Assembly: GCA_037893245.1 (NCBI GenBank) | Contig: JBAIAA010000538.1 | Location: forward strand, 1-64,000 | From: Crossaster papposus | Lineage: Eukaryota; Echinodermata; Asteroidea; Velatida; Solasteridae | Length of the DNA stretch: 64,000 nucleotides | Reading direction: 5' to 3' | Shown here: positions 18,847-64,000 of the stretch, piece after piece | Numbering within the stretch: the stretch's first letter is position 1 | How the letters are laid out: every line of letters starts with the position of its first letter | Translations under genes and position numbers: made by a program | Notes under the pieces: generated by a model | The model's database searches: none | Told to the model about the DNA's origin: nothing | Seen by the model: only the letters and a program-made list of their open reading frames with translations

Positions 18847-18862
18847 TTATTATAGCGAGATA

Positions 18863-32317: not shown

Positions 32318-33006
32318 CCCCCCCCCCCCCCCCGACCCTTACCAGAGCCCCGATGCCACACCACCCATAATGGAGCATCATTCCCGGTCCCCCGTCCAGC
32401 ACGATATGCCGTCGCATATCCTCGAATCTCCAACCAGTGAGCCCGTCCCTGGCTCCTCAAGTCTCCCGTCTGATGGGTGGGTCGCCCAGACATCGGACAA
32501 GTATTCCCGGACGCCCCAGTCCCAGTCCTCTCCGGTACCGCCGATCACGCTCACAGACGTGATGGATGCCATCGGGATCCTCAACAAGCGTCTTGACGGG
32601 ATGGAACACGCCGTCAAGGCCAAGGTTAAGGAAGTCGCTCAGGCCCAGTCGTGTCACCTGGTCCGTGTGATCCAACGCATTGACAATTAGGGACAAACTG
32701 CGTCAATTGTGAACTTATAGTGATTTCACTACCATCTCAATGGACACTGAACTTTTACTTTCGTCGTTTTAGATGGATATTTATTCTTCTGTTTTCGCTC
32801 TCATTATTCTTATGTTAAAGGATTGTATTCTTTTGATTTTCTTTTTGAGTTAACCTCTATTCTAGCGCTCCGTTTAACTTTGATGTTTTCAGTTGCTTTA
32901 GTTCAATTTTCGCTTTTCTATTATTTTGTTTACCGTATGTTATTCCCTACGTTACAACGAGGACGTTGTAAAAACTGGGGGGGGGGGGGGGGGGGGGAGG
33001 AGATAG
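32318..33006 (+). mobile_element. Gypsy 3' UTR and polypurine tract
   Basis: Non-coding region after the integrase stop, an inverted copy of 2880-3581. A C tract lies directly after the stop codon. At its end a G tract (32977-32997) plus AGGAGATAG forms the polypurine tract right before the LTR start TGTTGCG. Confidence 0.8.
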
Positions 33007-33256
33007 TGTTGCGTTCACGCATACAGCGAGCGGTCTTTATTTCTTTCCCAACCAACGCGCAGCGTTCTTGCAGCGATATATGTGTGCCCTCACACAGAGC
33101 GAAGTTATCACGCACTAATACTGGTACGCGTGTACAGCACATGGTACGGTACGCTATTGTATAGCGCGCAATGCATCCAGCATGTACTGTGTGCTGTGAC
33201 CTCGTTCACAGCGAGTTATGACTTAGTCGTTTTCCCTCATACTTTCCCCGGAGTCG
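33007..33256 (+). mobile_element. Gypsy 3' LTR fragment, 250 bp, plus orientation
   Basis: Matches the first 250 bp of the LTR (reverse complement of about 37823-38072), starting TGTTGCGTTCACGC. It ends at GAGTCGATGTGAA and changes directly into minus-strand pol sequence, so this is an inversion breakpoint. Confidence 0.85.
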
Positions 33257-35799: not shown

Positions 35800-36923
35800 T
35801 TGTTTGCAAAGTGGCCGGGCTTACCACATTTGAAACAAGTCACATCGTCAGCTCTCCTCTGCCTCTTGGCTTCAGCGGACGTGGACAATCTCTGTTTGTT
35901 GGCGTTGTGGGCGGGCGTATCTTTGATCAGCTTGACGATTCCATTCAACCGCCGGTCGAGGTTGTCCTGAAACTGCTTGAGCTGTTTTTGGGTGACAAAC
36001 CCCGGCTCCGCCTCGGGTGGTGCCTGCACGGTGTTCACTCGATGTGCCTTTCCTGGGCTTGTAGTATCACGGAGGCTCAGGAAGTTTTCCACCGCTGTAG
36101 TGGCCTCCTCAAGGGACTTGGGATTTGTCATCCCAACAGAAACTGCCATCTGCTGATCAGAGAGACCCTTCAGAAGGTGGCGAAGGGCGATGCTTCCCCT
36201 TGTAACTGGGTCAGCCGTTGGGTAGCCACGAAAGACGAGGCGGCGAATGTCAGCTACAAACTCCGCCAGCTTCTCCGCCGGCTGATGTCTCCTCGCTTCT
36301 AGCTGAGCGATGTAGTAGTTTGGCAACTGTCGCTCGCCAAATCGCTTGTCGAGCTCTTTTATCAAAGTGTCTGACGGCTTGATTGCCTCAGGTTCCATTT
36401 GTTTAAACACGTACTCAGCCGCCTTCCCTCGTAAGCTGCTTACAAGTCGAAAGCGTTTTTCTTCTTCAGTCCAGCCGCAAGCCTCGGCGAGACCCATCAA
36501 AGGACGGACAAAGCCTTCCCATGACTTCGTGCCGTCAAATTCTCCTTGGCGAGGGAGAGGAACATCCAGCTTATGACTCGGCTGTGTTCTGGAAAGACGG
36601 GACTCTGCTGCTGTTGGCCTGGGGACAGTAGAAGGGTTGGTACTGGTGGTTGACATCACTGGCTGTGATTCCTGGGGCGAATTCGCTGAAACATCTGCTC
36701 CTGTCTGCTCAGCCGTTGGTGGACTGTGAAACGCAGCAGTTGCACGGAGCTGTTTCAGCTCTTTCTCCGCCTCCACTGAACAAAGCTTCAAGAGTTCGAA
36801 TTCTTGCTTGAGTTGTTGAAGTTCTGAACTTTCTGCCTGTAGACTTGAAAACGACATGTCGCTGTCATCACCCTCATACAATGACTGCAACCTGCGAGAT
36901 TTTCGCCTTTGCTTGGTAGGCAT
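35748..36923 (-). CDS. Ty3/gypsy Gag
   Basis: 391 residues. A basic N-terminus (MPTKQRRKSRRLQS) precedes a coiled-coil-like segment (about 25-65) and a retrotransposon capsid-like core (about 120-290, with WEGFVRPLMGLAEACGW and LRGKAAEYVF). A zinc knuckle CX2CX4HX4C follows at 363-376 (CFKCGKPGHFANKC). The product assembles the particle and binds the RNA. The frame is intact, and the pol frame overlaps its last codons at -1. Confidence 0.92.
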   Translation of the reverse strand: MPTKQRRKSRRLQSLYEGDDSDMSFSSLQAESSELQQLKQEFELLKLCSVEAEKELKQLRATAAFHSPPTAEQTGADVSANSPQESQPVMSTTSTNPSTVPRPTAAESRLSRTQPSHKLDVPLPRQGEFDGTKSWEGFVRPLMGLAEACGWTEEEKRFRLVSSLRGKAAEYVFKQMEPEAIKPSDTLIKELDKRFGERQLPNYYIAQLEARRHQPAEKLAEFVADIRRLVFRGYPTADPVTRGSIALRHLLKGLSDQQMAVSVGMTNPKSLEEATTAVENFLSLRDTTSPGKAHRVNTVQAPPEAEPGFVTQKQLKQFQDNLDRRLNGIVKLIKDTPAHNANKQRLSTSAEAKRQRRADDVTCFKCGKPGHFANKCPDRAAKEVVVIQSEN

Positions 36924-42242: not shown

Positions 42243-43606
42243 CTAGACATGTGTTTGTGGACAAACACAGAGCTGTTTCGGGTTTCGAAAATGACTTTTA
42301 ATATGTGGGTGGTGGTCTTAGTGCTTGTTAAGTCTGAAGTCGATTAGATTTACCCCAGTGCCAAAGATATATTGGTTGAAAAAACCGTGTACGAATCCTA
42401 TGGGGAAAACTACACCTTTAATGTGACGTTACATGACCCACGATGACGTCATCCCGACATCATCCTAATTTTCGCCTATAACACATCCTGGAATACATGA
42501 ATACCAAGTTTGACCCCAATCGGACCTGTACTTCTAGAGATAAAGGGCCCTAACAATTGCACCTTTAATGTGACGTCACATGACCCCGGATGACGTAATC
42601 ATGACGATTTTCCTCTTGGCCCTCCTGAGGATAGTGGTTGAGGTTTGTATTAAGTCTAAAGTCGGTCGGATGTACCAAAGTGTCAAAGTCAATAGTCTGA
42701 AGGAAAACGTGTACAAAACCTATGGGACAAAATTGCACCTTTAAAGTGACGTCACATGACCCACGATGACGTCATCATGACGTCACTTCAATTTATACCT
42801 GTAACACATCCCCTAATACTTGCATACCACGTTTGACCCCAATCGGACTTGTACTTCAAGAGAAAGAGGGTCTTTTAAAATCACCTTTAATGTGACGTCA
42901 CATGACCTACATGACGTCATCCTGACGAAGTTCATCGTGGCCCTCCTGGGGACGGTGATTGAGGTGTGTGCTAAGTCTCAAGTCGATCAAATTTACGAAA
43001 GTGTCAAAGTCAATAGTCTAAAGAAAAAAGTGTACAAAACCTATGGGGGAACATTTTCACCTTTATCGTGAAGTCACGTGACCTTGAATGACGTAATCGT
43101 GCCGAATTTCTTCTAGGGCCGTCTGTGGATGGTGGTCTAAGTGTGTGCCAAGTCTCAAGTCGATCGGATTTACTAAAGTGTCAAAGTCAATAGTCTAAAG
43201 AAAAACGTGTACAAAACCAATGGGAGAAAAATGTGAACCTTTAATGTGACGTCACGTGACCTTGAATGACGCAATCGTGCCGAAGTTCTTTCAGAAACAT
43301 TTGGGGATGGTGTTCTAAGTGTATGCCAAGTTTCAAGTCGGTCGGATTTACCGAAGTGCCAAAGTCAATAGTCTGAAGAAAAACGTGTACAAAACCTATG
43401 GGGAAAAATTGCACCTTTAACATGACGTCACGTGACCATGAATGACGTAATCATTACGAATTTCTTCTAGGACCATCTGTGGGTGGTGATCTAAGAGTAT
43501 GCCAAGTCTCAAGTCGATCGGATTTATTAAAGTGTCAAAGTGTATTGGCAGAACAAACGTGTACAAATCCTATGGGGAAAATGACAAATAAGAAAAAAAA
43601 GAAAAA
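42243..43606 (+). repeat. Array unit 1, type I
   Basis: The start stem is at 42251-42268. Seven subrepeats carrying TGACGTCA or a near version follow at spacings of about 145 and 178 bp (near 42425, 42570, 42748, 42893, 43065, 43244, 43422). It ends A-rich, without a 3' hairpin. Confidence 0.7.
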
Positions 43607-46135
43607 CTAGAGATATGTCTGTTCAAGGAACAGAGCATATGGCTTTTTCGCATTTTTTTGTTGTATTGTTCATTACATTTATGATTTCATTTAATAAATT
43701 TCTTTACTTTAATTTTTTCAAAACTGCAAATTTTAAATTATTAATTGGATTATATCTCTCGCGGTTAATTTTCAGAAATGTTTAAAGGTTTTTTAATTGT
43801 AATTTCCGGTCTAGTGACGTCATATTATCGTGACGTAATTAACAAAAAGCTCGAGAGCTGTCTTAACTTTGCTATTTAAAGCAAAAATCTGGATTATATC
43901 TATCGCGGTTGATTTTTAAGCGACGTTTTAAGGTTTTAAGGTCTTTTCATTGTAACTTCCGGTTTGGTGACGTCATCAATAAATCTCTTTCTCAATATGT
44001 TGTTAGCACGAAGCTGATTATATACACCGGTTATAAAGTGATTTCAGCAAACTTCGCCACACACATCAACAGATTATTCATTTTAACAATTTTTCAACCT
44101 GCCGCTAGAGGGCGCTATAACGTGTTATGACGTCGCCGGTAATTATTTTGAAAAGTTTATTCTAGCCAGACACTAACATCGTTGAAAGTAAGTTCATATC
44201 ATTTTTCACTTTCAAATTATGAGGCACTTCCGGTTTGGACCGGAAGGAAGGGTCACGTGATTTTAAGCACACGAGATAAAATGAAGATTCTGGATTATTA
44301 TATCTATTGCCACAAAAATCAAGTTTCGGTCTTTTGTGGTTGATTTGTTATTTATTTTTAAAGATTAAATCAATTACACCTTTAAAATGACGTCACGTGA
44401 CCCCTGACGACGTAACCATGACGTATGTCTGCGAGACACGAGTTTACTATAGGGTCTTCATCTGGGTTAAGTTTTATGGAAATACGACTTTGTTTTTCGT
44501 TAAAAGTGCTTGGAATTGTGCAAACAACGTTCACAAAGTCTATGGGATTGGATTCTGCGTAGCCGAGAGCCTGTTTACCTACCTGTCGCACACGGCGCCC
44601 TTCCCCATAGGCAATTTGATGACGTCATCCTGTTTCGCTTGTTGGCGGCTAGTGTCCTCTTGGGTGAGCGTACATTTGCATGCACGTACGATGTCAGTGG
44701 TGATACATTCGCTCAATGCATAGTACACTATCAGTGTATACGTACGTACATATACAAGCATGTACACCCCTATTATACGTGTGCCAGGCACATATAAGGG
44801 GTCAATGCTTTATGCGCCTAGGCCAAAACGATTACATTTCAAGGGTGCCGCAGGGTATGTTCAAGTTCGTTTTTTGCCCCAAAACACAGGGAAGTTCGAG
44901 AACTACTTTTACATTAACCTTTAGAACAAAAATAAAGATTGTATCTGTCAGGTTTAATTTTTTAGGAATTTTCAAAGGAAAAGGAGTCTTTTCATTCTAA
45001 CTTCCGGTCTGGTGACGTCATAATTTTTTCTTCCCGTCAACTTGTTCCTAGCATGAAGCTGATTAAATACACCGGTTATAAAGTGATTTCAGCAAACTTC
45101 GCCACACACATCAACAGATTATTCATTTTAACAATTTTTCAACCTGCCGCTAGAGGGCGCTATAACGTGTTATGACGTCGCCGGTAATTATTTTGAAAAG
45201 TTTATTCTAGCCAGACACTAACATCGTTGACAGTAAGTTCATATCATTTTTCAGTTTTAAATTATAAGGCACTTCCGGTTTGGACCGGAAGGAAGGGTCA
45301 CGTGATTTCACGCACATGAGTTGAAATGAAGATCTTTAATTATTCTATCTATCGAGAGCTGTCTTAACTTTGCTATTTCAAGCAAAAATCTGGATTATAT
45401 CTATCGCGGTTGATTTTTAAGCGACGTTTTAAGGTTTTAAGGTCTTTTCATTGTAACTTCCGGTTTGGTGACGTCATCAATAAATATCTTTCTCAATATG
45501 TTCTTAGCACGAAGCTGATTATATACACCGGTTATAAAGTGATTTCAGCAAACTTCGCTACACACATTAACAGATTATTCATTTTAACAATTTTTCAACC
45601 TGCCGCTAGAGGGCGCTATAACGTGTTATGACGTCGCCGGTAATTATTTTGAAAAGTTTATTCTAGCCAGACACTAACATCGTTGAAAGTAAGTTCATAT
45701 CATTTTTCACTTTCAAATTATGAGGCACTTCCGGTTTAGACCGGAAGGAAGGGTCACGTGATTTCACGCACACGAGATAAAATTAAGATCCTGGATTATT
45801 CTATCTATTGCCACAAAAATTAAGTTTCGGTCTTTTGCGGTTGATTTGTTATTGAATTTCAAAGATTAAATCAATAACACCTTTAAGATGACGTCACGTG
45901 ACCCCTGATGACGTCACCATGACGTATTTCTGCGAGACACGAGTTCACTATGGGGTCTTCACCTGGGTTAAGTTTTATGTAAATACGACTTTGTTTTCGA
46001 TTAAAAGTGACGGGCAGAAAAAACGTGTACAAAGTCTATGGGGTTTAGGTTACTAAAAGAAAAGAAGAAAAAAAGAAGAAAAAAAAAAATCAGAACAAAA
46101 ACAAAGGCTTTTTCGCAAAATTGCGAAAAAGCCAA
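43607..46135 (+). repeat. Array unit 2, type III
   Basis: Holds CTCF-like words at 44102, 45147 and 45603 and the paired CTTCCGGT/ACCGGAAG palindrome at about 44227, 45272 and 45728. Terminal hairpin 46106-46133 with stem GGCTTTTTCGC. Confidence 0.7.
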
Positions 46136-48619
46136 CTAGAACTACGTCTGTTCGAGGAACAGAACATAGGGCTTTTTCGCATTCGCAATTTTTTTGATTA
46201 AATTTTTCAAAAATTGACTTTTTATACCATCAAAACAATTTAAAATCATTGAAAACGAATTTAAGTTAATTTAAACAGATTACAATTATTTCAAACTGAT
46301 TAAAACGATGACGTCACACGTTTGTGAACTTTGTTTGCAACTATCTATCACCTAACAATACAAAAAGATGTGTTATGTTAGCACGTTCCGTTGCTGATAT
46401 GGCTTAAAGGTCTAAAAACGTAATAATTCAAATATAATCGTAATATGACGTAACATTTGTCAACATGCCGCTAGAGGGCGCTATAACATTTTATAAAGTC
46501 ACCGTTAACTTGTTTGTTACTTACAACCTAGCCAGCGCCTAACATCGTTTAAAGTAAGTTTACATCGTTTCCCACTTTTAAATTATAAGGCACTTCCGGT
46601 TTGGACCGGAAGGAAGGGTCAGGTCTTTTTGCATGTATTACAAATTATGAAGACCATGGATTAATCTATCAATTCCCTTAAAAATCTAAATCGGATCTCT
46701 TACAGTTGATTTTATAAGGATTTTCAAAGATTAAATTTAGAAATATTTGGTTGCTTGTAATCTGACACTTGATGACGTCATTGTGACGTAATTAACAGAA
46801 ACTCGAGATCAGTCTTAACTTTGCTATTTGAAGCAAAAATCTGGATATATCTATAGCGGTTGATTTTTAAGCGACTTTTTACAGTTTAAAGGATTTTTTA
46901 TTGTAACTTCCGGTTTGGTGACGTCATAAATATTTCTCCTTCCCAATATGGTCTAAGCATGAAGCTGATTATATACACCAGTTATAAAGTTATTTCAGCA
47001 AACTTCGCAACACACATCAACAGATTAATCATTTTAACCATTTTCAACCTGCCGCTAGAGGGCGCTATAACATGTTATGACGTCGCCGGAATTTTTTTGA
47101 ATAGTTTATTCTAGCCAGACAATAACATCGTTAAAAGTAAGTTCATATCATTTTTCACTTTCAAATTATAAGGCACTTCCGGTTTTGACCGGAAGGAAGG
47201 GTCACGTGATTTCACGCACACGAGATAAAATGAAGATCCTGGATTATTCTATTAATTGCCACAAAATTCAAGTTTCGGTCAATTGCGGTTGATGTTTTAT
47301 TGATTTTCAAAGATAAAATCAATTGAACCTTTAAGATGACGTCACGTGACTCCTGATGACGTCATTATGACGTCTGTCTGCGAGACACCAGTTCACTATT
47401 GGGTCTTCACCTGGGTCAAGTTTATGGGAATACGACTTTGTTTTTCCGTTAAAAGTGCTTTGAATTGTGCAAGCAACGTTTACAAAGTCTACGGGGTTGG
47501 ATTCTGCGTAGCCGAAAGCGTGTTTACCTACCTGTCGTACGCGGCGCCCTTCCCCATGGGCAATTTGATGACGTCATCCTGTTTCACAGGTTGGCGGCTA
47601 GTGTCCTCTTGGGTGAGCGTACATGTGCTTGCACCAACGATGTCAGTGGTGATACATTCGCTCAATACATAATACACTATCAGTGTATACGTACATGTAC
47701 TATCATGTATATTATACGGGTGCCATGCACACGTAAGGGGTCAATGCTTTTTGCACCTAGGCCAAAACGATTACATTTCAAGGGTGCCGCAGGGTATGTT
47801 CAAGTTCGTTTTTTGCCCCAAAACACAGGGAAGTTCGAGAACTACTTTTACATTAACCTTTAGAGCAAAAATCAAGATTGTATCTGTCAGGTTTAATTTT
47901 TTAGGAATTTTCAAAGGAAAACGAGTCTTTTCATTCTAACTTCCGGTCTGGTGACGTCATAATTTTTTCTTCCCGTCAACTTGTTCCTAGCATGAAGCTG
48001 ATTAAATACACCGGTTATAAAGTGATTTCAGCAAACTTCGCCACACACATCAACAGATTATTCATTTTAACAATTTTTCAAACTGCCGCTAGAGGGCGCT
48101 ATAACATGTTATGACGTCACCAATATTTTTTTTGAAAAATACATTGTAGCCAGACACTAACATCGTTGAAAGTAAGTTCATATCATTTTTCACTTTCAAA
48201 TTATGAGGCACTTCCGGTTTAGACCGGAAGGAAGGGTCACGTGATTTCACGCACACGAGATAAAATTAAGATCCTGGATTATTCTATCTATTGCCACAAA
48301 AATTTAGTTTCGGTCTTTTGGGGTTGATTTGTTATTGAATTTCAAAGATTAAATCAATTACACCTTTAAGATGACGTCACGTGACCCCTGATGACGTCAC
48401 CATGACGTATTTCTGCGAGACACGAGTTCACTATAGGGTCTTCACCTGGGTTAAGTTTTATGGAAATACGACTTTGTTTTCTGGTAAAAGTACTTGTGCA
48501 AAAAAACGTGCACAAAGTCTATGGGGTTTAGGTTACTAAAAGAAAAAAAAAAGAAGAAGAAGAAAAAAAAAAATCAGAACAAAAACAAAGGCTTTTTCGC
48601 AAATTTGCGAAAAAGCCAA
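46136..48619 (+). repeat. Array unit 3, type II
   Basis: CTCF-like words at 46468, 47052 and 48086. Palindromes at about 46592, 47175 and 48209, the last two repeating the roughly 1035-bp spacing of unit 2. Terminal hairpin 48590-48617. Confidence 0.7.
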
Positions 48620-50023
48620 CTAGAAATATGTCTGTTCTATGAACAGAGCATATGGCTTTTCCGCAATTTTTGTCATTGTTCATTACATTTATGATTTTAT
48701 TTGTTAAATTTCCTTAGCATTCTATTTTTAAAAATGAAAATTGAAAAACATTAATTGGATTAAATCTCGCGGTTTATTTTAGGCAATGTTTAAACCTTTA
48801 AAGGTCTTTTCATTGTAACTTCCGGTCTAGTGACGTCATATTTGTTTCTCATTGCCAACTTGTTCCTAACAAGATGCTGATTATAAATACCAGTTATAAA
48901 GCGATTTGAGCAAACTTCGCCATACACATCAACTGATTATTCATTTTAAACATTTTTCAAACTGCCACTAGAGGGCGCCATAACAATTGATGACGTCGCC
49001 GGTAACTTTTGTGTAGAGAGCAGCCTAGCCATAGACTATCATCGTTGAAAGTAAGTTCATATCATTTTCAACTTTCAAATGATAAGGCACTTCCGGTTTG
49101 GACCGGAAGGAAGGGTCAAGTCATTTTGCATGTAATACGAAATATGAAGACCCTGGATTATTCTATCAATTCCCGTTAAAATCTAAATCAGATCTCTTAC
49201 AGTTGATTTTATATTGATTTTTAAAGATTAAATCTAGAAATTATTAGTTGCTTGTCATCTGATCCTTGATGACGTCATCATGACGTCATTAACATAAAGC
49301 TCGAGAGCTGTCTGAACTTGTCTATTTAAAGAAAAAAAAAAGAATTATATCTATCGCGGTTGAATTTTCAGCAATTATTTAAGGTTTAAAGTTCTTTTCA
49401 TTGTAACTTCCGGTCTAGTGACGTCATATTTGTTTCTCTCCGCCAACTTGTTCTTAACATGAAGCTGATTATATTCACCAGATATAAAGTGATTTGGGCA
49501 AACTTCGCCACACACATCAACTGATTATTCATTTTTAACAGTTTTCAACCTGCCGCTAGAGGGCGCCATAACAATTTATGACGTCGCCGGTAACTTTTGT
49601 GTAGAGAGCAGCCTAGCCAGAGACTATCATCGTTGAAAGTAAGTTCATATCATTTATCACTTTCAAATTATAAGCCACTTCCGGTTTGGACCGGAAGGAA
49701 GGGTCACGTGATTGTACGCACACGAGATAAAATGAAGATCCTTAATTATTCTATCGATTCCCACAAACTTCAAGTTACGGTCTTTTGCGGTTGATTTTGT
49801 ATTGATTTTCAAAGATTAAATTATTAAAACTTTAAGATGACGTCACGTGTCACGTTATGACGTCATGATGACATCCGAGTTTTAGGCACTAGCTCAGTAC
49901 GAGTTCTGAGTATGTGCAAAGTTTCAATGAAATTGAAGTATGTTTAATGACAAAAGTGACCTCCAGAAGAAACGTGTACAAAGTCTATGCGATTTATGGG
50001 ACAAGAACAAGAAGAAGAAAAAA
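48620..50023 (+). repeat. Array unit 4, type III
   Basis: The start stem has a changed loop (TAT) but intact CTGTTC/GAACAG arms. CTCF-like words at 48965 (full consensus match) and 49553. The end is A-rich without hairpin. Confidence 0.65.
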
Positions 50024-51376
50024 CTAGACATGTGTTTGTGGACAAACACAGAGCTGTTTCGGATGTCTAAGATAACTTTCATTATGTGTGTGCCAAGTCT
50101 GAAATCGATTGGATTTGTCAATTTTCCCAAGATATATAAGTTGAAAATACGTGTACAAATCCTATGGGAAAAACTGCACCTTTAAAGTGACGTCACATGA
50201 CACCCGATGATGTCATCATGATGTCATCTTAATTTTCGTCTATTACACATTCTGGAATACTTGCATACCAAGTTTGGCCCCAATCAGACATGTACTTCCA
50301 GAGATAGAGGGTCCTAAAATCTGCCCCTTTAATGTGACGTCATATGACCCACGATGACGTCATCCTGACGATTTCCCCCTTGGCCCTCCTGGGTATGGTG
50401 GTCGAGGTGTGTGCCAAGTCCGAAGTCGATCGGATTTACCAAATTGTCAAATTCAATAGTCTAAAGAAAAACGTGTACAAAACCTATGGAGAAAATTGAA
50501 CCTTTAATGTGACGTCACATGACACCCGATGATGTCATAATTACGTCATCCTATTTTTTTGTCTATAACACATCCTCGAATACTTGCAAACCAAGTTTGA
50601 CCCCAACCGGACTTGTACTTTCAGAGTTAGACGGTCTTAAAAACTACACCTTTAATGTGACGTCACATTACCCCCGATGACGTCATCTTGATTATTTTGT
50701 TCTTGACCCTCCTAAGGATGGTGGTCGAGGTCTGTGCTAAGTCTCAAGTCGATCGAATTGACAGAAGTGTCAAATTCAATATTTTGAAGAAAAACGTGTA
50801 CAAAACCTATGGAGAAAATTGAACCTTTAATGTGACGTCACATGACCCACGATGACGTCATCATGACAATTTTTCTCCTGGACCTCCTGGGGATGGTGGT
50901 CGAGGTGTGTGCTAAGTTTCAAGTCAATCGGATTCACCAAACTGTCAAATTAAATAGTCTGAAGAAAAACGTGTACAAAACCTATGGGGGAATAATTTGC
51001 ACATTTAACGTGACGTCACGTGACCTTGAAAGACGCAATCGTGCCGAATTTCTTCCAATATCATTTGTGGGTGGTGTTCTAAGTGTATGCCAAGTTTCAA
51101 GTCGGTCGGATTTATCGAAGTGCCAAAGTCAATAGTCTGAAGAAAAACGTGTACAAAACCTATGGGGAAAATTTCACCTTTAAAGTGACGTCACGTGACC
51201 TTGAATCACGCAATCGAGCCAAATTTCTTCTAGGACCATCTGTGGGTGGAGGTCTAAGTGTACACCAAGTCTCAAGTCAATTGTAATCACCAAAGTGCCA
51301 AAGTGTATTGGCAGAACAAACGTGTGTAAATCCTATGGGTAAAAACACTGAAAGTGGAAAAAAAAAAAAGGAAAAA
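50024..51376 (+). repeat. Array unit 5, type I
   Basis: TGACGTCA-bearing subrepeats like those of unit 1. It ends in a 10-nt A run before GGAAAAA and the next CTAG. Confidence 0.65.
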
Positions 51377-52459
51377 CTAGACATGTGTTTGTGGACAAAC
51401 ACAGAGCTGTTTCGAGTGTCTTTCAATATGTGTGTGATGATCTTTTGTGTGTGCCAAGTCTTAAGTCGATCAGATTTACTAAAGTGTCAAAGTCAATAGT
51501 CTAAAGAAAAACGTGTACAAAACCTATGGTGGAAAATTGAACCTTTAACATGACGCCCCGTGACCTTGAATGACGTAATTGTGCCGAATTTCCTCTAGGA
51601 CCGTCTGTGGATGGTGATCTAAGTGTGTGCCAAGTCTCAAGTCGATCGGATTTACTAAAGTGTCAAAGTCAATAGTCTAAAGAAAAACGTGTACAAAACC
51701 TATGGGGGAAAAATTGAACCTTTAACGTGCCGTCACGTGACCTTGAATGACGCAATCGTGCCGAATTTCTTCCAGAACCATATATGAGTGATGTTCTAAG
51801 GGTATGCCAAGTTTCAAGTCGGTCGGATTTACTAAAGTGTCAAAGTCAATAGTCTGAAGATAAACGTGTACAAAACCTATGGGAAAAAAATAGAAACTTT
51901 AACGTGACGCCCCGTGACCTTGAATGACGTAATCGTGCTGAATTTTTCTAGGGCCGTCCGTGGATGGTGGTCTAAGTGTGTGCCAAGTCTTAAGTCGATC
52001 GGATTTACTAAAGTGTCAAAGTCAATAGTCTAAAGAAAAACGTGTACAAAACCAATGGGAGAAAAATGTGAACCTTTAATGTGACGTCACGTGATCTTGA
52101 ATGATGCAATCGTGCCGACTTTCTTTCAGAAACATCTGGGGGTGGTGTTCTAAGTGTATGCTAAGTTTCAAGTCGGTCGGATTTACCGAAGTGCCAAAGT
52201 CAATAGTCTAAAGAAAAACGTGTACAAACCCTATGGGGAAAATTAAACCTTTAACGTGACGTCACGTGACCTTGAATGACGCAATCGAGCCAAATTTCTT
52301 CTAGGACCATCTGTGGGTGGAGGTCTAAGTGTATACCAAGTCTCAAGTCGATTGGATATACCAAAGTGCCAAAGTGTATTGGCAGAACAAACGTGTGTAA
52401 ATCCTATGGGTAAAAACACTGAAAGTGGAAAAAAAAAAAAGGAAAAAAAAAAAAAAAAA
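51377..52459 (+). repeat. Array unit 6, type I
   Basis: A shorter copy. Several subrepeats have lost the TGACGTCA palindrome (TGACGCCCCGTGACC). Ends in A runs. Confidence 0.65.
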
Positions 52460-53167
52460 CTAGACATGTGTTTGTGGACAAACACAGAGCTGTTTCGAGT
52501 GTCTTACATTACTTTCAATATGTGTGTGGTGGTCTTTTGTGTGTGCCAAGTCTCAAGTCGATCAGATTTACTAAACTGTCAAAGGCAATAGTCTAAAGAA
52601 AAACGTGTACAAAACCTATGGGAAAAAAATAGAAACTTTAACGTGACGCCCCGTGACCTTAAATGACGTAATCGTGCCGAATTTCTTCTAGGGCCGTCTG
52701 TGGATGGTGGTCTAAGTGTGTGCCAAGTCTCAAGTCGATCGGATTTACTAAAGTGTCAAAGTCAATAGTCTAAAGAAAAACGTGTACAAAACAATGGGAG
52801 AAAAATGTGAACCTTTAATGTGTCGTCATGTGACCTTGAATGACGCAATCGTGCCGAATTTCTTTCAGAAACATCTGGGGATGGTGTTCTAAGTGTATGC
52901 CAAGTTTCAAGTAGGTCGGATTTACCGAAGTGCCAAAGTCAATAGTCTGAAGAAAAACGTGTACAAAACCTATGGGAAAAATTTCACCTTTAACGTGACG
53001 TCACGTGACCTTGAATGACGCAATCGAGCCAAATTTCTTCTAGGACCATCTGTGGGTGGAGGTCTAAGTGTACACCAAGTCTCAAGTCGATTGGAATCAC
53101 CAAAGTGCCAAAGTGTATTGGCAGAACAAACGTGTGTAAATCCTATGGGTAAAAACACTGAAAGTGG

Positions 53168-53221
<54 letters not shown>

Positions 53222-53382
53222 TTAACGAAAACAAAAGCTGTTTCGGTGAAAAACCGAAACAGCTAAAAAGAAAAAAAAAAACTTTAACGAAAACAAAAGC
53301 TGTTTCGGTGAAAAACCGAAACAGCTAAAAAAACAAACAGAAGAAAAACAAAGGCTTTTTCGCTTTTTAGCGAAAAAGCCAA
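52460..53382 (+). repeat. Array unit 7, type I with three terminal hairpins
   Basis: Contains a 52-nt A tract (53168-53219). Then come two identical hairpins with stem GCTGTTTCGG/CCGAAACAGC (53237-53263, 53299-53325), the type I partner, and one with stem GGCTTTTTCGC (53353-53380), the type II partner. Confidence 0.7.
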
Positions 53383-55190
53383 CTAGAACTACGTCTGTTC
53401 AAGGAACAGAACATAGGGCTTTTTCGCTTTCGTATTTTTTTAGAGTATTTGTTTTCAAAAAACCCGAATTTAAGTTAATTTAAACAGATTAAAATAAATT
53501 CAAACTGATTAAAACGATGACGTCACACGTTTCTGAACTTTTTGTGCAACTATCTATCACCTAACAACACAAAATGAGGTGTTATGTTAACACGATCCTT
53601 TGCTGAGATATGCCTTCAACGTCTAAAAACGTAATAATTCAAATATAATCGTAATATGACGTAACATTTGTCAACATGACGCTAGAGGGCGCTTTAACAT
53701 TTTATGAAGTCACTGTTAACATTTGTGTTACTTACAATCTAGCCAGCTCCTAACATCGTTGAAAGTAAGTTCACATCGTTTTTTACTTTTAAATTATAAG
53801 AAACTTCCGGTTTGGACCGGATGGAAGTGTCAGGTCTTTTTGCATTTAATACAAATTATGAAGACCATGGATTAATCTATCAATCCCCCTAAAAATCTAA
53901 ATCAGATCTCTTACAGTTGATTTTATATTGATTTTCAAAGATTAAATTTATAAATATTTGGTTGCTTGTAATCTGACACTTGATGACGTCATCTTGACGT
54001 AATTAACAGAAAGCTCGAGAGCTGTCTTAACTTTGCTATTTAAAGCAAAAATCTGGATTATATCTATCGCGGTTGATTTTTAAGCGACGTTTTAAGGTTT
54101 TAAGGTCTTTTCATTGTAACTTCCGGTTTGGTGACGTCATCAATAAATCTCTTTCTCAATATGTTGTTAGCACGAAGCTGATTATATACACCGGTTATAA
54201 AGTGATTTCAGCAAACTTCGCCACACACATCAACAGATTATTCATTTTAACCATTTTTCAACCTGCCGCTAGAGGGCGCTGTAACGTGTTATGACGTCGC
54301 CGGTAATTATTTTGAAAAGTTTATTCTAGCCAGACACTAACATCGTTGAAAGTAAGTTCATATCATTTTTCAGTTTTAAATTATAAGGCACTTCCGGTTT
54401 GGACCGGAAGGAAGGGTCACGTGATTTCACGCACATGAGTTGAAATGAAGATCTTTAATTATTCTATCTATCGAGAGCTGTCTTAACTTTGCTATTTCAA
54501 GCAAAAATCTGGATTATATTTATCGCGGTTGATTTTTAAGCGACGTTTTAAGGTTTTAAGGTCTTTTCATTGTAACTTCCGGTTTGGTGACGTCATCAAT
54601 CAATCTCTTTCTCAATATGTTCTTAGCACGAAGCTGATTATATACACCGGTTATAAAGTGATTTCAGCAAACTTCGCTACACACATCAACAGATTATTCA
54701 TTTTAACAATTTTTCAACCTGCCGCTAGAGGGCGCTATAACGTGTTATGACGTCGCCGGTAATTATTTTGAAAATTTTATTCTAGCCAGACACTAACATC
54801 GTTGAAAGTAAGTTCATATCATTTTTCAGTTTTAAATTATAAGGCACTTCCGGTTTGGACCGGAAGGAAGGGTCACGTGATTTCACGCACGCGAGATAAA
54901 ATTAAGATCATGGATTATCCTATCTATTGCCACAAAAATTAAGTTTCGGTCTTTTGCGGTTGATTTGTTATTGATTTTCAAAGATTAAATCAATTGCACC
55001 TTTAAGATGACGTCACGTGATCCCTGATGACGTCACCATGACGTATTTCTGCGAGACACGAGTTCACTATAGGGTCTTCACCTGGGTTAAGTTTTATGTA
55101 AATACGACTTTGTTTTCTATTAAAAGTGACGGGCAGAAAAAACGTGTACAAAGTCTATGGGGTTTAGGTTACTAAAAGAAAAAAAGAAAA
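53383..55190 (+). repeat. Array unit 8, type II
   Basis: CTCF-like words at 54266 and 54722; palindromes near 54391 and 54847 (456 bp apart, as in unit 2). No 3' hairpin. Confidence 0.65.
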
Positions 55191-58054
55191 CTAGAACTAC
55201 GTCTGTTCGAGGAACAGAACATAGGGCTTTTTCGCATGTACATTTTGTTTAGATTTAGTTTTCAAGAAATTAAACTATTATACCTTAAAAAACATTCAAA
55301 ACGAATTTAACTGAATTGAAACAGATTAAAATGAATTTAAACAGATTAAATCAAATTTAAATGATTTTGAACGAATTTAAACTATTAAAAACATTTTTAA
55401 AGAATTGAAAATAAAATAAAACGAATATAAACGCATGTAAACAAAATCAAAGTTCATGACGTCACATGCCCCCTGATGACGTCACCACGACAATACGTGT
55501 CAATTCACATATTGTCACTATGATATTGGTCTGTGCCAAGTCTGCAGTCAATCTGATCAAAGGAAGTGTGAATTTTTTAAGTGGAATAAAATTAGAAAGA
55601 AAGAAAAATTCATTAAAAATGAATTGATAACGTCAGTAATACGTCACTTCGGTTTTGCGTACCAATGATCGTATCTAACTTCTCAAGTTTCATGACGATC
55701 GGACCTATTCTTTTGTTTATTTTTTAAAGTTATGTTTTTGATGACGTCATTACGAAGTCACACACGTCCAAGGATCAAATAAAGGATACAAATAGGCGTA
55801 CAGCTCAAAAACTTATTGGAAATAAATTGGAATTTTTTTGAAATAAATTGTTTTAATGAAAGTATATGATTGACACCCCTTGGTATATAGCTGTAGTGGT
55901 GGCGTAACTACGGAGGACGTCCTTCCTTCCCGTTGGAGATATATGTGCGCCCCTGGGTACTACCCCGACCCCCATTTGAAATGTATAATTACTACACACA
56001 AGTTCCTGTATTCAGTACGTGCTCCTCTGGAAAATTGGTGCACGGCTTTAAGATATTCAGCTCTAGGCCGCTGCTTGTTGTATTGCACTTCCGGTTTGGA
56101 CCGGAAGGAAGGGCCAAGTGATTTTACGCCCGGGCGATAAAATAAAGATCCTGAATTATTCTATCAATCGCCACAAACTTCAAGTTCAGGGCATTTGCTG
56201 TTGATTTATTGATTTTCAAAAATTAAATCTATTGCACCTTTAAGATGACGTCACGTGACCCCTGATGACGTCATAATGGCGTCCTTCTGCGAGACATGAG
56301 TTCATAAATATGAAGGCGCTCGATTATGCTATAAAATCGCGTAAAATTCGAACTCAGATCTTTCATAGTTGATTTTATAAAGATTTTAAAAGATTAAATA
56401 TAGAAATCAATTTCAACCTGCCGCTAGAGGGCGCTATAACATGTTATGACGTCGCCGGAATTTTTTGGAAAAGTTTATTCTAGCCAGACAATAACATCGT
56501 TGAAAGTAAGTTCATATCATTTTTCACTTTCAAATTATGAGGCACTTCCGGTTTAGACCGGAAGGAAGGGTCACGTGATTTCACGCACACGAGATAAAAT
56601 GAAGATCCTGGATTTTGTTCTATTAATTGCCACAAAATTCAAGTTTCGGTCTTTTGCGGTTGATGTTTTATTGATTTTCAAAGATTAAATCAATTGCACC
56701 TTTAAGATAAGGTCACGTGGCCCTGATGACGTCTTTCTCGTGGTGTCTGTCGGCGAGACTGGAGTTCACTATTGGGTCTTCACCTGGGTCAAGTTTATGG
56801 GAATACGACTTTGTTTTTCCGTTAAAAGTGCTTTGAATTGTGCAATCAACGTTTACAAAGTCTACGGGGTTGGATTCTGCGTAGCCGAAAGCGTGTTTAC
56901 CTACCTGTCGTACGCGGCGCCCTTCCCCATGGGCAATTTGATGACGTCATCTTGTTTCACAGGTTGGCGGCTAGTGTCCGCTTGGGTGAGCGTACATGTG
57001 CTTGCACGAACGATGTCAGTGGTGATACATTCGCTCAATGCATAATACACTATCAGTGTATACGTACATGTACTAGCATGTATATTATACGTGTGCCATG
57101 CACACGTAAGGGGTCAATGCTTTTTGCACCTAGGCCAAAACGATTACATTTCAAGGGTGCCGCAGGGTATGTTCAAGTTCGTTTTTTGCCCCAAAATACA
57201 GGGAAGTTCGAGAACTACTTTTACATTAACCTTTAGAACAAAAATCAAGATTGTATCTGTCAGGTTTAATTTTTTTGGAATTTTCAAAGGAAAAGGAGTC
57301 TTTTCATTCTAACTTCCGGTCTGGTGACGTCATAATTTTTTCTTCCCGTCACCTTGTTCCTAGCATGAAGCTGATTAAATACACCGGTTATAAAGTGATT
57401 TCAGCAAACTTCGCCACACACATCAACAGATTATTCATTTTAACAATTTTTCAAACTGCCGCTAGAGGGCGCTATAACATGTTATGACGTCACCAATATT
57501 TTTTTTGAAAAATACATTGTAGCCAGACACTAACATCGTTGAAAGTAAGTTCATATCATTTTTCACTTTCAAATTATGAGGCACTTCCGGTTTAGACCGG
57601 AAGGAAGGGTCACGTGATTTCACGCACACGAGATAAAATTAAGATCCTGGATTATTCTATCTATTGCCACTAAAATTTAGTTTCGGTCTTTTGCGGTTGA
57701 TTTGTTATTGAATTTCAAAGATTAAATCAATAACACCTTTAAGATGACGTCACGTGACCCCTGATGACGTCACCATGACGTATTTCTGCGAGACACGAGT
57801 TCACTATGGGGTCTTCACCTGGGTTAAGTTTTATGTAAATACGACTTTGTTTTCGATTAAAAGTGACGGGCAGAAAAAACGTGTACAAAGTCTATGGGGT
57901 TTAGGTTACTAAAAGAAAAGAAAAAAAAAAAAAAGAAGAAGAAGAAAAAAAAAAATCAGAACAAAAACAAAGGCTTTTTCGCAAAATTGCGAAAAAGCCA
58001 AAAAAAAATCAGAACAAAAACAAAGACTTTTTCGCAAAATTGCGAAAAAGCCAA
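55191..58054 (+). repeat. Array unit 9, type II with doubled terminal hairpin
   Basis: The longest unit. CTCF-like words at 56421 and 57459. The hairpin is present twice (57972-57999 and 58025-58052); the second has one stem mismatch. Confidence 0.7.
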
Positions 58055-60890
58055 CTAGAACTACGTCTGTTCGAGGAACAGAACATAGGGCTTTTTCGCA
58101 TTCGCAATTTTTTAGATTACATTTTTCAAAAATTGAACTTTTATACCATCAAAACAATTTAAAATCATTGAAAACAAATTTAAGTTAATTTAAACAGATT
58201 AAAATGAATTCAAACAGATTAAAACGATGACGTCACACGTTTGTGAACTATTTGTGCAACTATCCATCACCTAACAATACAAACAGATGTGTTATGTTAG
58301 CACGTTCCGTTGCTGAGATATGGCTTAAAGGTCTTAAAACGTAATAATTTAAATATAATCGTAATATGATGTAACATTTGTCAACATGCCGATAGAGGAC
58401 GCTATCACATTTAATGAAGTCACCGTTGACTTTGTTGTTATTTACAACCTAGCCAGCGCCTAACATCGTTGAAAGTAAGTTCACATCGTTTTCCATTTTT
58501 AAATTATAAGGCACTTCCGGTTTGGACCGGAAGGAAGGGTCGGGTCTTTTTGCATCCAATACAAATTATGAAGACCATGGATTAGTCTATCAATTCCCCT
58601 AAAATTCTAAATCAGATCTCTTACAGTTGATTTTATATTGATTTTCAAAGATTATATCTATAAATATTTGGTTGATTGTAATTTGACACTTGATGACGTC
58701 ATCGTGACGTAATTAACAGAAAGCTCGAGAGCTGTCTTAACTTTGCTATTTGAAGCAAAAATCTGGATTATATCTATCCCGGTTGATTTTTAAGCGATTT
58801 TTAAAGGTTTAAAGGATTTTTCATTGTAACTTCCTGTTTGGTGACGTCATAAATATTTCCCCTTCCCAATATGGTCTTAGCATGAAGCTGATTATATACA
58901 CCGGTTATAAAGTGGTTTCAGCAAACTTCGACACAAACATCAACAGATTATTCATTTAAAACAATTTTCCAACCTGCCGCTAGATGGCGCTATAACGTGT
59001 TCTGATGTCGCCGGTGTTTTTTTTTTTAAATGCATTCTAGCCAGACACTAACATCGTTAACAGTAAGTTCATATCATTTTTCACTTTTAAATTATAAGGC
59101 ACTTCCGGTTTGGACCAGAAGGAAGGGTCACGTGATTTCACGCACACGAGATAAAATGAAGATCCTGGATTATTCTATACATTGCCACAAAATTCAAGTT
59201 TCGGTCTTTTGCGGTTGATATTTTATTGATTTTCAAAGATTAAATCAATTACACCTTTAATTATTTTTATTTTATGACGTCACGTGACCCCGATGAAGTC
59301 TTCATTATGGCGTCTATCGGCGAGACTGGAGTTCACTATAGGGTCTCCACCTGGGTCAAGTTTAATGGGAATACGACTTTGTTTTCCGTTAAAAGTGCTT
59401 GGAATTGTGCAAGCAACGTTTACAAAGTCTAAGGCACTTCCGGTTTTGACCGGAAGGAAAGGTCACGTGATTTCACGCACACGAGATAAAATGATGATCC
59501 TAGATTATTCTATCTATTGCCACAAAATTAGAGTTCAGGGTTTTTGTGGTTGATCTGTTATTGATTTTTAAAGATTAAATCTATTGCGCCTTTAAGATAA
59601 CGTCACGTGACCCTAATGACGTCTTCATCATGGCGTCTGTCGGCGAGACTGGAGTTCACTATAGGGTCTTCACCTGGGTCAAGTTTTATGGCAATACGAC
59701 TTTGTTTTCCGTTAAAATTGCTTGGAATTCAGAATTGTGCAAACAACGTTTACAAAGTCTATGGGATATTGGATTCTGCGTAGCCGAAAGCGTGTGTACG
59801 GTACCTACCTGTCGTACGCGGCGCCCTTCCCCATGGGCAATTTGATGACGTCATCCTGTTTCACAGGTTGGCGGCTAGTGTCCTCTTGGGTGAGCGTACA
59901 TGTGCTTGCACGAACGATGTCAGTGGTGATACATTCGCTCAATACATAATATACACTATCAGTGTATACGTACATGTACTAGCATGTATATTATACGTGT
60001 GCCATGCACACGTAAGGGGTCAATGCTTTTTGCACCTAGGCCAAAACGATTACATTTCAAGGGTGCCGCAGGGTATGTTCAAGTTCGTGTTTTGCCCCAA
60101 AACACAGGGAAGTTCGAGAACTACTTTTACATTAACCTTTAGAGCAAAAATCAAGATTGTATCTGTCAGGTTTAATTTTTTAGGAATTTTCAAAGGAAAA
60201 GGAGTCTTTTCATTCCAACTTCCGGTCTGGTGACGTCATAATTTTTTCTTCTCGTCTACTTGTTCCTAGCATGAAGCTGATTAAATACACTGGTTATCAC
60301 GTGATTTCCGCAAACTTCGCCACACACATCAACAGATTATTCATTTTAACCATTTTTCAACTTGCCGCTAGAGGGCGCTATAACATGTTATGGCGTCGCC
60401 GATATTTGTTTTGTTAAATACAATCTAGCCAGACACTAACATCGTTGAAAGTAAGTTCATATCATTTTTCACTTTTAAATTATAAGGCACTTCCGGTTTG
60501 GACCGGAAGGAAGGGTCACGTGATTTCACGCACACGAGATAAAATGAAGATTCTTAATTATTTTATCTATTGCCACAAAAATCAAGTTTCGGTCTTTTGC
60601 GGTTGATTTGTTATTGATTTTCAAAGATTAAATCAATTGCACCTTTAAGATGACGTCACGTGACCCCTGATGACGTCACCATGACGTATGTCTGTTAGGA
60701 CCGAGCTCACTATAGGGTCTTCACTTGGGTTAAGTTTTATGGAAATACGACTTTGTTTTCTACTAAAAGTGACGTGCAGGAAAAACGTGTACAAAGTCTA
60801 TGGGGTTTAGGTTACTAAAAAAAAAAAAAAAAGAAAAAAAAAATCAGAACAAAAACAAAGGCTTTTTCGCAAAATTTGCGAAAAAGCCAA
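58055..60890 (+). repeat. Array unit 10, type II
   Basis: CTCF-like words at 58977 (with T in the K position) and 60365, plus a degenerate one near 58388. Terminal hairpin 60860-60888. Confidence 0.7.
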
Positions 60891-61756
60891 CTAGACATGT
60901 GTTTGTGGACAAACACAGAGCTGTTTCGATTGTCTAACGTTACTTTCAATATGTATGTGTGGTGGTCTATATGTGTGCCAAGTCTGAAGTCGATTGGATT
61001 TACACAATTGTCAAAGATTATTAGTTGAAAAAAACGTGTACAAATCCTATGGGGAAAATTGAACCTTTAATGTGACGTCACATGACACCCGATGATGTCA
61101 TCATGATGTCATCTTAATTTTCGTCTGTAACACATCCTGGAATACTTGCATACCAAGCTTGACCCCAATCGGGCCTGTATTTCCAAAGATAGAGGGTCCC
61201 TAAAACTGCACCTTTAATGTGACGTCACATGACCCACGATGACGTCATTATGACGATTTTTCGCTTGACCCTCCTGGGGATAGTGGTCGAGATGTGTGCT
61301 AAGTCTCGAGTCGATCAAATGTACGAAAGTGTCAAAGTCAATAGTCTGAACACAAACGTGTACAAACCCTATGGGGAAAAAAATTACACCTTTAACGTCA
61401 CGACACGTGACCTTGAATGACGCAATCGTGCCGAATTTCGTCCAGGACTATCTGTGAGTGGTGTTCTAAGTGTATGCTAAGTCTCAAGTCGATCGCATTT
61501 ATTAAAGTGTCAAATTCAACAGTTTGAATAAAAACGTGTACAAAACCTATGGGGAAAATGTTACCTTTAACATGACGTCACGTGACCTTGAATGACGGAA
61601 TCGCGACGAATTTCTTCTAGGACCGTCCTTGGGTGGTTGTCTAAATGTATGCCAAGTCTCAGGTCGATCGGATAGACCAAAGTGTCAAAGTGTATTTGCA
61701 GAAAAAACGTGTACAAATCCTATGGGGAAAATGACAAAAAAGAAAAAAAAGAAAAA
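60891..61756 (+). repeat. Array unit 11, type I
   Basis: The shortest complete unit, with TGACGTCA subrepeats and an A-rich end directly followed by the next CTAG. Confidence 0.65.
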
Positions 61757-63241
61757 CTAGAGATATGTCTGTTCAAGGAACAGAGCATATGGCTTTTTCG
61801 CATTTTTTTTCATTGTTCATTACATTTATGATTTTATTTGTAAAATTTCCTTAGCATTCAATTTTTAAAAATGAAAATTGAAAAACATTAATTGGATTAT
61901 ATCTCACGCGGTTTATTTTAAGCAATGTTTAAATGTTTAAAGGTCTTTGCATTGTAACTTCCGGTCTAGTGACGTCATATTTGTTTCTCTTCGCCAACTT
62001 GTTCCTGACAAGATGCTGATTATAAATACCAGTTACAAAGCGATTTGAGCAAACTCCGCCACACACATCAACTGATTATTCATTTTAAACATTTTTCAAC
62101 CTTCCACTAGAGGGCGCCGTGACAATTTATGACGTCACCGGTAACTTTTGTGTAGAGTGTAGCTAGACAGAGACTATCATAGTTGAAAGTAAGTTCATAT
62201 CATTTTCAACTTTTAAATTATAAGGCACTTCCGGTTTGGACCGGAAGGAAGGGTCAAGTCATTTTGCATGTAATACGAAATATGAAGACCCTGGATTATT
62301 CTATCAATTCCCGTTAAAATCTAAATCAGATCTCTTACAGTTGATTTTATATTGATTTTTAAAGATTAAATCTAGAAATCATTAGTTGCTTGTTATCTGA
62401 TACTTGATGACGTCATCGTGACGTCATTAACATAAAGCTCGAGAGCTGTCTGAACTTGTCTATTTAAAGCAAAAAAAAAGAATTATATCTATCGCGGTTG
62501 ATTTTTCAGCGATTATTTAAGGTTTAAAGGTCTTTTCATTGTAACTTCCGGTCTAGTGACGTCATATTTTTTTCTCTCCGCCAACTTGTTCCTAACATGA
62601 AGTTGATTATATACACCAGATATAAAGTGATTTGGGCAAACTTCGCCACACACATCAACTGATTATTCATTTTTAACAGTTTTCAACCTGCCGCTAGAGG
62701 GCGCTGTAACATGTTATGACGTCACCGGTATTTTTTTTGAGAAGCACGATCTAACCAGAGACTAACATCGTTGAAAGTAAGTTCGCATCATTTTCCACTT
62801 TCAAATTATGAGGCACTTCCGGTTTAGACCGGAAGGAAGGGTCACGTGATTTCACGCACACGAGATAAAATTAAGATCCTGAATTATTCTATCTATTGCC
62901 ACAAAAATTTAGTTTCGGTCTTTTGCGGTTGATTTGTTATTGAATTTCAAAGATTAAATCAATTACACCTTTAAGATGACGTCACGTGACCCCTGATGAC
63001 GTCAACATGACGTATTTCTGCGAGACACGAGTTCACTATAGGGTCTTCACCTGGGTTAAGTTTTATGAAAATACGACTTTGTTTTCGATTAAAAGTGACG
63101 GGCAGAAAAAACGTGTACAAAGTCTATGGGGTTTAGGTTACTAAAAGAAAAGAAAAAAGAAGAAGAAGAAGAAGAAAAAAAAAAATCAGAACAGAAACAA
63201 AGGCTTTTTCGCAAAATTTGCGAAAAAGCCAAAAAGAAAAA
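61757..63241 (+). repeat. Array unit 12, type III
   Basis: CTCF-like words at 62104 (full consensus match) and 62691. Terminal hairpin 63202-63230, then a short A-rich spacer. Confidence 0.7.
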
Positions 63242-64000
63242 CTAGACATGTGTTTGTGGACAAACACAGAGCTGTTTCGGATGTCTAAAATGTCTTTTAT
63301 TATGTGTGTGTGGTGGTCTAAGTGTGTGCCAAGTCTAAAGTCGATCGGATTTACCAAAGTGCCAAAGATATATTGGTTGAACAAAAACGTGTACAAATCC
63401 TATGGGAAAAACTGAACCTTTAATGTGATGTAACATGACACCCGGCGATGTCATCATGACGTCATCTTAATTTTCGTCTATAACACATCCTCGAATACTG
63501 GCAAACCAAGTTTGACCCCAACCGGACTTGTACTTTCAGAGTTAGAGGGTCTTAAAAACTACACCTCTAATGTGACGTCACATGACCCGCGATGACGTCA
63601 TCTTGATTATTTTTTTCTTGGCCCTTCTAAGGATGGTGGTCGAGGTCTGTGCTAAGTCTCAAGTCGATCGAATTTACAGAAGTGTCAAATTCAATATTTT
63701 GAAGAAAAACGTGTACAAAACCTATGGAGAAAATTGTACCTTTAATGTGACGTCACATGACACCCGGTGATGTCATAATTACGTCATCTTAATTTTCGTC
63801 TATAACACACCCTCGAATACTTGCAAACCAAGTTTGACCCCAACCGGACTTGTACTTTCAGAGTTAGAGGGTCTTAAAAACTACACCTTTAATGTGACGT
63901 CACATGACCCGCGATGACGTCATCTTGATTATTTTTTTCTTGGCCCTTCTAAGGATGGTGGTCGAGGTCTGTGCTAAGTCTCAAGTCGATCGAATTTACA
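63242..64000 (+). repeat. Array unit 13, type I (cut by window end)
   Basis: The start stem is intact. Two adjacent subrepeats of about 340 bp (near 63420-63760 and from 63760 on) are almost identical, suggesting recent local duplication. Continues beyond the window. Confidence 0.6.

Follow-up and report, generated by a model that had tools for sequence, protein, structure and literature searches.

The window analysed here, a 64,000-nt stretch of the starfish Crossaster papposus (GenBank assembly GCA_037893245.1, contig JBAIAA010000538.1, positions 1 to 64,000 of the forward strand), is occupied from position 42243 onwards by an array of units that begin with CTAG and a stem-loop and share a motif with a nearby hairpin. 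What are these units, and how did so many come to lie one behind the other? A preliminary description had taken each to run from CTAG to a hairpin, had compared their ends with those of Helitron2/Helentron elements, and had proposed that they were joined head to tail as rolling-circle concatemers. The evidence given below has led us to a different reading, which we hold with high confidence: the array consists of non-autonomous Helentron-type elements (HINEs), stacked on the minus strand and self-nested by insertion into the T-tracts or the terminal Ts of copies already in place.

Anatomy and orientation of the elements

We observed 13 CTAG and stem-loop starts in the window (at 42243, 43607, 46136, 48620, 50024, 51377, 52460, 53383, 55191, 58055, 60891, 61757 and 63242), and the motif that each was said to share with the hairpin of its own type was present in all 13, the repeat containing it starting at base 30 (type I) or 35 (types II and III) from the CTAG end. 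The orientation had to be reversed. In the elements' own sense, which is the minus strand, the hairpin is the 5′ terminus and CTAG is the 3′ terminus. The array was also found to continue past 64000, where it had been thought to end. When the next 40 kb of the same contig were included, further hairpins appeared at 67483-68574, and the array spans 42243-68574. Its outermost hairpin (on the 68574 side) and its outermost CTAG (42243) both adjoin (AAT)n.

In element sense, the 5′ end consists of TT(A) and a palindromic subterminal repeat, followed by a T-rich tract. The type I repeat begins AGCTGTTTCGG after TT and its palindrome is GCTGTTTCGG...CCGAAACAGC; that of types II and III is GGCTTTTTCGC...GCGAAAAAGCC. 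T-rich 20-mers (at least 16 T) were confined to the first 150 nt in 11 of the 14 stretches examined. The exceptions were one 20-mer at 676 in the 48620 stretch, and two stretches with several piled hairpins, 52460 and 64439, in which such 20-mers extend to 202 and 265, respectively. The body, inside the T-rich tract, carries tandem repeats with periods of ~175 or 323 bp in type I stretches and 456 bp in type II/III stretches. At the 3′ end, an inverted repeat is followed by a stem-loop of 7-8 bp and by CTAG, and in all 13 window ends this stem-loop begins 7 nt (I) or 11 nt (II/III) from the terminus, CTAG counted. The 3′ motif is exact (GCTGTTTCGG or GGCTTTTTCGC) in nine starts and has one changed base in four (GCTGTTTCGA at three starts, GGCTTTTCCGC at 48620). 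Perfect hairpins with a 10-nt stem start at 43 positions in the 26.3-kb array; ten dinucleotide shuffles gave 0-4 such positions.

The 3′ repeat of each type matches the hairpin of the same type, and hairpins are present at both ends; the asymmetric terminal inverted repeats of Helitron2/Helentron elements, which the preliminary description had recognised, are thus found here. Judged from the termini and paired repeats in the sequence, the anatomy of the units is that of a Helentron/HINE. Canonical Helitrons have a 5′ TC and a 3′ CTRR, insert between A and T, and have no paired inverted repeats. A canonical Helitron was considered and rejected: although CTAG agrees with CTRR, the units begin with TT plus a palindrome, have paired repeats at their ends and target runs of T.

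Order of hairpins and CTAG ends

The stretch from one CTAG to the next, taken as the unit in the preliminary description, did not hold up as such. Six of the 12 complete stretches (those starting at 42243, 48620, 50024, 51377, 53383 and 60891) have no hairpin at the right end, while the one starting at 52460 contains two type I hairpins and one type II hairpin. We let each hairpin open a bracket and each CTAG end close one, reading 5′ to 3′ in element orientation, and obtained the following features.

42243..64000, continuing to 68574 outside the window, minus strand: the array, read as nested HINE/Helentron elements, with 15 hairpins and 15 CTAG ends to 68574
42243..42281, minus strand: outermost type I 3′ end (CTAG), next to the host (AAT)n run at 42242
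43607..46133, minus strand: complete type II element (5′ hairpin 46106-46133, CTAG at 43607)
46136..48617, minus strand: complete type III element (5′ hairpin 48590-48617, CTAG at 46136)
48620..50023, minus strand: more diverged type II body and 3′ end with motif GGCTTTTCCGC, apparently split by later insertions; its own hairpin is ambiguous
50024..51376, minus strand: type I part with 3′ end, no hairpin beside it; paired in the stack with 53353, which is not of its type
51377..52459, minus strand: type I part with 3′ end, stack-paired with hairpin 53299
52460..53263, minus strand: innermost type I element of the stack (hairpin 53237-53263, CTAG at 52460)
53299..53380, minus strand: piled 5′ hairpins (type I at 53299-53325, type II at 53353-53380)
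53383..55190, minus strand: outer type III element, stack-paired with hairpin 58027, past the inner element
55191..57999, minus strand: inner type III element (hairpin 57972-57999), sitting in the T-tract of the outer element 53383
58027..58054, minus strand: 5′ hairpin with a change in one arm, attributed to the outer type III element 53383
58055..60888, minus strand: complete type III element (hairpin 60860-60888)
60891..61756, minus strand: outer type I part, stack-paired with hairpin 67601 outside the window
61757..63230, minus strand: complete type II element (hairpin 63202-63230)
63242..64000, minus strand: type I 3′ end, stack-paired with hairpin 67537 outside the window

The 15 opening and 15 closing marks of the full array, each side with eight of type I and seven of type II/III, form a valid bracket string, whereas a random order would be valid with a probability of 1/16. 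Type agreed in 13 of the 15 stacked pairs (permutation P=0.009). Three of the 30 marks (58027, 53383 and 48620) had been missed by the hairpin and end patterns and were added from other listings. The window alone leaves type I ends unpaired, and the hairpins that this predicts turned up beyond 64000.

The contents of the junctions were also examined. Seven of the 15 CTAG ends are followed by the severed T-tract and then the body of another element. Five are joined directly to TT and a hairpin, and four of these five junctions link different types (II and III counted apart). Neighbouring hairpins in the array are often unlike in loop and spacer. Nested insertion explains the mixed-type junctions, the ends that run into other bodies, and the stretches that have no hairpin.

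The same order was seen elsewhere in the genome. Four contigs on which the exact-match hairpin and end listings are complete (C1, C3, C5 and C7) served as an independent test: 59 pairs were formed, of which 51 were consistent in type. The array at C5:3665-3683 kb reads I I II×5 | II×5 I I, followed by a second type I stack; all of its ten pairs agree in type, with four closing marks unpaired. On C7, four of five pairs agree. Among the loci fetched where a type I end runs into a type II/III body, L051 and L061 run as predicted, with II hairpin, T-tract and I hairpin first and, further on, I CTAG, T-tract and II/III body. At L065, a II-like T-tract precedes the innermost hairpin, with no II hairpin; at L052 and L053 a type I hairpin comes directly after a type III end, and L055 has two type I hairpins and two type I ends.

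Insertion targets and Rep/helicase-bearing copies

All 15 CTAG ends of the array are followed by TT. Of 8,184 exact matches in the genome to the type I end CACAAACACATGTCTAG, 8,163 have T as the next base, and a single-copy insertion (L004), flanked by ATTATTATT(A) and TTATTTATTTC, likewise ends at CTAG|T, so that the boundary at CTAG expected in the preliminary description is borne out. The T-rich target of Helentrons and HINEs is found both at the array ends and at the type I ends of the genome. When the 80-nt flanks of the outermost insertion were joined to look for a paralogous empty site, 40 scored matches were obtained; two of them, on C113, cross the joint, their left side being only 17 nt of (AAT)n.

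Exact matches in the genome (which leave variant ends such as CACATTTCTAG uncounted) gave 9,307 type I hairpins versus 8,184 type I ends, and 2,720 type II hairpins versus 2,658 type II/III ends. At 4,751 places, a type I hairpin arm comes within 15-45 nt after a type I repeat arm; among 50 of these that were listed, 45 were hairpin-to-hairpin and five were CTAG end-to-hairpin. CTAG|T joined to a type I hairpin arm within 30 nt was found at 1,802 places, versus the 8,163 CTAG|T ends obtained with a longer pattern, and among the matches listed the T-spacers between CTAG and the next type I hairpin vary in length.

We further looked at the neighbours of the first 100 listed type I ends, a non-random sample from contigs C1-C18. 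Another type I end lay within 5 kb of 93 of them. Neighbouring ends at most 5 kb apart were on the same strand in 76 of 76 cases, versus 5 of 13 neighbours more than 20 kb apart; this shared strand follows if insertion goes into the T-tract, since the tract is strand-specific.

At C18:1826573-1836929, type I ends are exactly 3,452 bp apart three times running, a tandem segmental duplication within an array.

The search for an autonomous partner, suggested in the preliminary description, yielded candidates. The PF14214 profile gave 150 scored genome matches, and on four contigs (C215, C694, C388 and C531) PF14214 and PF05970 (PIF1) lie in one uninterrupted frame of 3,132-3,142 aa. The copies on C694, C388 and C531 have an exact type III CTAG end 5′ of the Rep frame and, on the other side, a type II hairpin with an identical loop. 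From the coordinates, the distance from CTAG to this identical innermost hairpin is 24.95-24.96 kb in all three, spanning the Rep/PIF1 frame, which is antisense to the termini. Within the frame, N-terminal matches to OTU, PHD, DUF6570 and Herpes_teg_N were found, and the Rep part has a match in the Helraiser structure 7lcc (E 8.5e-09). A Rep/PIF1 partner with the same ends was found for the type II/III ends only. On C1094, type I hairpins lie ~9.5 kb from a Rep frame of ~3,470 aa, in a region that does not reach the 3′ end.

The type III element at 46136 is 94% identical to the ends of the Rep-bearing element over the 3′ 700 nt and 96% over the 5′ body, and on C215, sequence lying past the frame shares 95.5% identity with the body of this unit. 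Long flanking alignments between Rep copies are 98.6-99.0% identical, and one that includes hairpin piles is 93.8% identical; at the sequence level, this suggests recent movement. Outside the CTAG of the C694, C531 and C388 copies lie the T-tract and body of another type II/III element, and the Rep-bearing copies are therefore nested too. We also compared the inner (55191) and outer (53383) type III elements of the window with the Rep-bearing element. The inner one is closer in the 5′ body (94.5 versus 89.8% identity), as expected, while the 3′ ends show the opposite trend (78.0 versus 85.6%); as the two disagree, subfamily differences dominate over relative age.

Two further features were noted beside the Rep-bearing copies. 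At the C531 copy, L047 3645-4246 holds no fewer than eight exact 5′ hairpins piled together, the copy's own among them, with both types represented. A tandem coding-like repeat, open in several frames, adjoins the Rep element on C215 (L039 1-1240).

Other mobile elements are present in the window. At 9478-23145 there is a 1307-aa frame with a sub-cut-off Endonuclease_7 match, a retroviral-type integrase (rve) and a Pox_A32-like ATPase, together with further frames that may be capsid genes, of which 19782-21050 has no Pfam match; we take this to be a Polinton/Maverick-like element. A protease, a reverse transcriptase and RNase H at 33223-35799 (minus strand) and an integrase frame at 30221-32317 (plus strand) are presumably parts of a Ty3/Gypsy-like retrotransposon (30221-36923). 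Reverse-transcriptase frames at 25451-27468, with an RVT_1 match of 26449-27468 that is under the curated cut-off, are, we assume, possibly Penelope-like.

Formation of the array

Comparisons here and below are with passages of the cited texts. According to Thomas and Pritham (2014, PMC4067079), mite HINEs have a palindromic subterminal repeat that lies 2-4 nt from the 5′ end and 38-60 nt from the 3′ end, together with a 3′ palindrome, and they insert into T-rich sites. The elements described here resemble HINEs, DINE-1 and Helentrons (PMC4067079) in the 5′ palindromic repeat with its inverted 3′ copy and stem-loop; they also share central tandem repeats in some copies, a Rep/helicase partner with the same ends, and a T-rich target, which in the published elements shows no clear duplication. 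They differ in that the 3′ repeat is 30 or 35 nt from the end, slightly nearer than 38-60, and in the CTAG end, the Rep frame antisense to the termini and the mass self-nesting. By description, Drosophila DINE-1 (PMC2374699) also has subterminal inverted repeats, a 3′ hairpin and insertion between TT, and Cg_HINE of Crassostrea gigas (PMC7492417) is a non-autonomous Helentron-type element with satellite-like central repeats of 140-180 bp, comparable to the ~175-bp repeats of several type I bodies here; neither paper's text contains the word 'nested'. The Proto-Helentron of Phytophthora infestans (PMC4067079) shares the 5′ TT and 3′ CTAG termini and a Helentron-like Rep; unlike the array elements, it inserts between A and T and is otherwise Helitron-like. 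Closest are the Helitron2-type FoHeli elements of Fusarium oxysporum (PMC5148889), which have asymmetric inverted ends and hairpins, in some cases with Rep reversed, and for which self-insertion and multiple 5′ ends have been described. The account there is of single examples and of 'a number' of multiple 5′ ends, whereas we see thousands of adjacent hairpin arms and an array of 15 ends. The literature thus already contains the Helentron anatomy, the T-rich targets, the reversed Rep, and self-insertion with multiple 5′ ends (PMC4067079, PMC2374699, PMC5148889). In these passages and in searches of the open PubMed Central literature we found no description of nested-bracket arrays, or of self-nesting as the main mode, the Fusarium paper coming nearest.

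Insertion is precise and into runs of T, giving CTAG|T at the 3′ end and TT ahead of the 5′ palindrome, and each element brings its own good target in the T-rich tract immediately inside that palindrome. We propose that a new copy would enter the T-tract of a resident, or its terminal Ts, in the same orientation. Each insertion would push the hairpin of the resident outward and strand its body behind the new CTAG. The outcome would be an order like that of nested brackets, with the hairpins collected at one end of the stack and the CTAG termini at the other. In some piles, double 5′ ends were probably mobilised together as a composite element. Anatomy, termini, bracket order, shared orientation and the Rep/helicase copies with the II/III ends are seen directly in the sequence. 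The units are most likely mobilised by the ~25-kb Rep/helicase Helentron-like elements of the same genome. By analogy with known systems, replication would be of the rolling-circle kind and Rep would recognise both copies of the repeat as a pair. The co-evolved end recognition of the preliminary description is compatible with the two sequence types, which are its sole basis.

The head-to-tail concatemers proposed earlier, made by bypass of the 3′ terminator or by repeated copying of a circle, appear very improbable to us. Bypass is the published account of tandem Helitrons in bat and silkworm (PMC4067079), joined-end molecules were amplified for a Fusarium Helitron (PMC5148889), and the five direct CTAG-to-hairpin junctions are what such copying would leave. 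The mixed types at four of these five largely refute it, however, and the seven ends that enter another element, the variable CTAG-to-hairpin spacers and the relative scarcity of such junctions (1,802 places) also stand against it. Duplication by unequal exchange or slippage, with hairpin piles and CTAG-to-CTAG stretches amplified separately in a satellite-like manner, would account for the successive 3,452-bp spacings, for neighbouring ends 719-723 bp apart and for a block repeated at C3:1914-1926 kb. As the main process we give it little chance, since, genome-wide, hairpins and ends are about equally numerous within each type by exact count, order and type nest in the window and C5 arrays, and adjacent hairpins are often unlike; as a secondary process it is likely. 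Composite transposition, in which multi-hairpin 5′ ends arose once and spread with one 3′ end, is compatible with nesting, which must build the first pile. It has been proposed for Fusarium, from self-insertion (PMC5148889), and two II-I spacer sequences are each identical at 11 of 64 loci, some of which may be duplicated haplotypes. The spacer of the pile at 53299-53380 is found at 11 of 64 genomic II-I junctions, its own included, and this double 5′ end is probably a composite that moved as a unit, as suggested for Fusarium (PMC5148889); the hairpin of element 48620 would then be missing. We doubt strongly that composites are the main source of piles, as another spacer class has 22 distinct T-spacers at 30 junctions, and exact hairpins exceed exact ends by just 14% (I) and 2% (II/III), with no large hairpin excess.

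Self-nesting of HINEs remains our preferred reading, and several observations weigh against it. Two of the 15 array pairs are mismatched in type, both from one crossing (50024/48620) that involves hairpin 53353. On the test contigs, eight of 59 pairs are mismatched, seven of them in the repeated block C3:1907-1926 kb, which agrees in only 5 of 12 pairs; the three mixed clusters together agree in 19 of 27. The within-contig P=5e-05 is overstated, single-type clusters being uninformative on type agreement. Over all clusters, 10 of 69 closing marks and 11 of 70 assigned opening marks are unpaired, the 70 coming from 81 listed hairpins, of which at least 11 lie more than 12 kb from any cluster and were not used. 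The listing used for the bracket test does not give hairpin strand, and some hairpins placed in a minus cluster (C3:1761 kb) are plus-strand by their T-tracts. Thirteen of the 19 junctions fetched between a type I end and a II/III body have no hairpin within 1.6 kb and are thus uninformative. The 719-723 bp spacing occurs in 13 of 76 neighbouring ends, which suggests some tandem duplication, and mirrored match spacings on different contigs suggest that the assembly holds some duplicated haplotypes, so that genome counts may be inflated. Finally, what was read of the 25-kb copies is their ends and the Rep/PIF1 part of the frame; the endonuclease fused to Rep/helicase that defines a Helentron in the strict sense would be expected in the C-terminal part of the protein.

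A simple preference for T, with the T-tract that each element carries, suffices to generate such arrays. Growth of an element by insertion into its own copies has a parallel in the Zepp clusters of Chlorella, which are formed by a long interspersed nuclear element (LINE), a retrotransposon of unrelated mechanism. We put forward only tentatively, as possible and on balance doubtful, that the T-rich tract is a built-in landing pad and that Helentrons have been selected to insert mainly into themselves, sparing host genes; if so, satellite-like blocks of nested elements would be expected, with a bracket order recording the sequence of insertions.

Together, these studies offer an account of how tandem arrays of rolling-circle transposons can form without rolling-circle concatemers, and nesting accounts for the half of the apparent units here that are without one end. 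Taken in order, the hairpins and CTAG ends can serve as a nested log of insertions, from which relative ages may be obtained, and the thousands of precisely delimited insertions are a natural set for studying the target choice of Helentrons. The arrays suggest a possible route by which dispersed elements may turn into satellite-like blocks.

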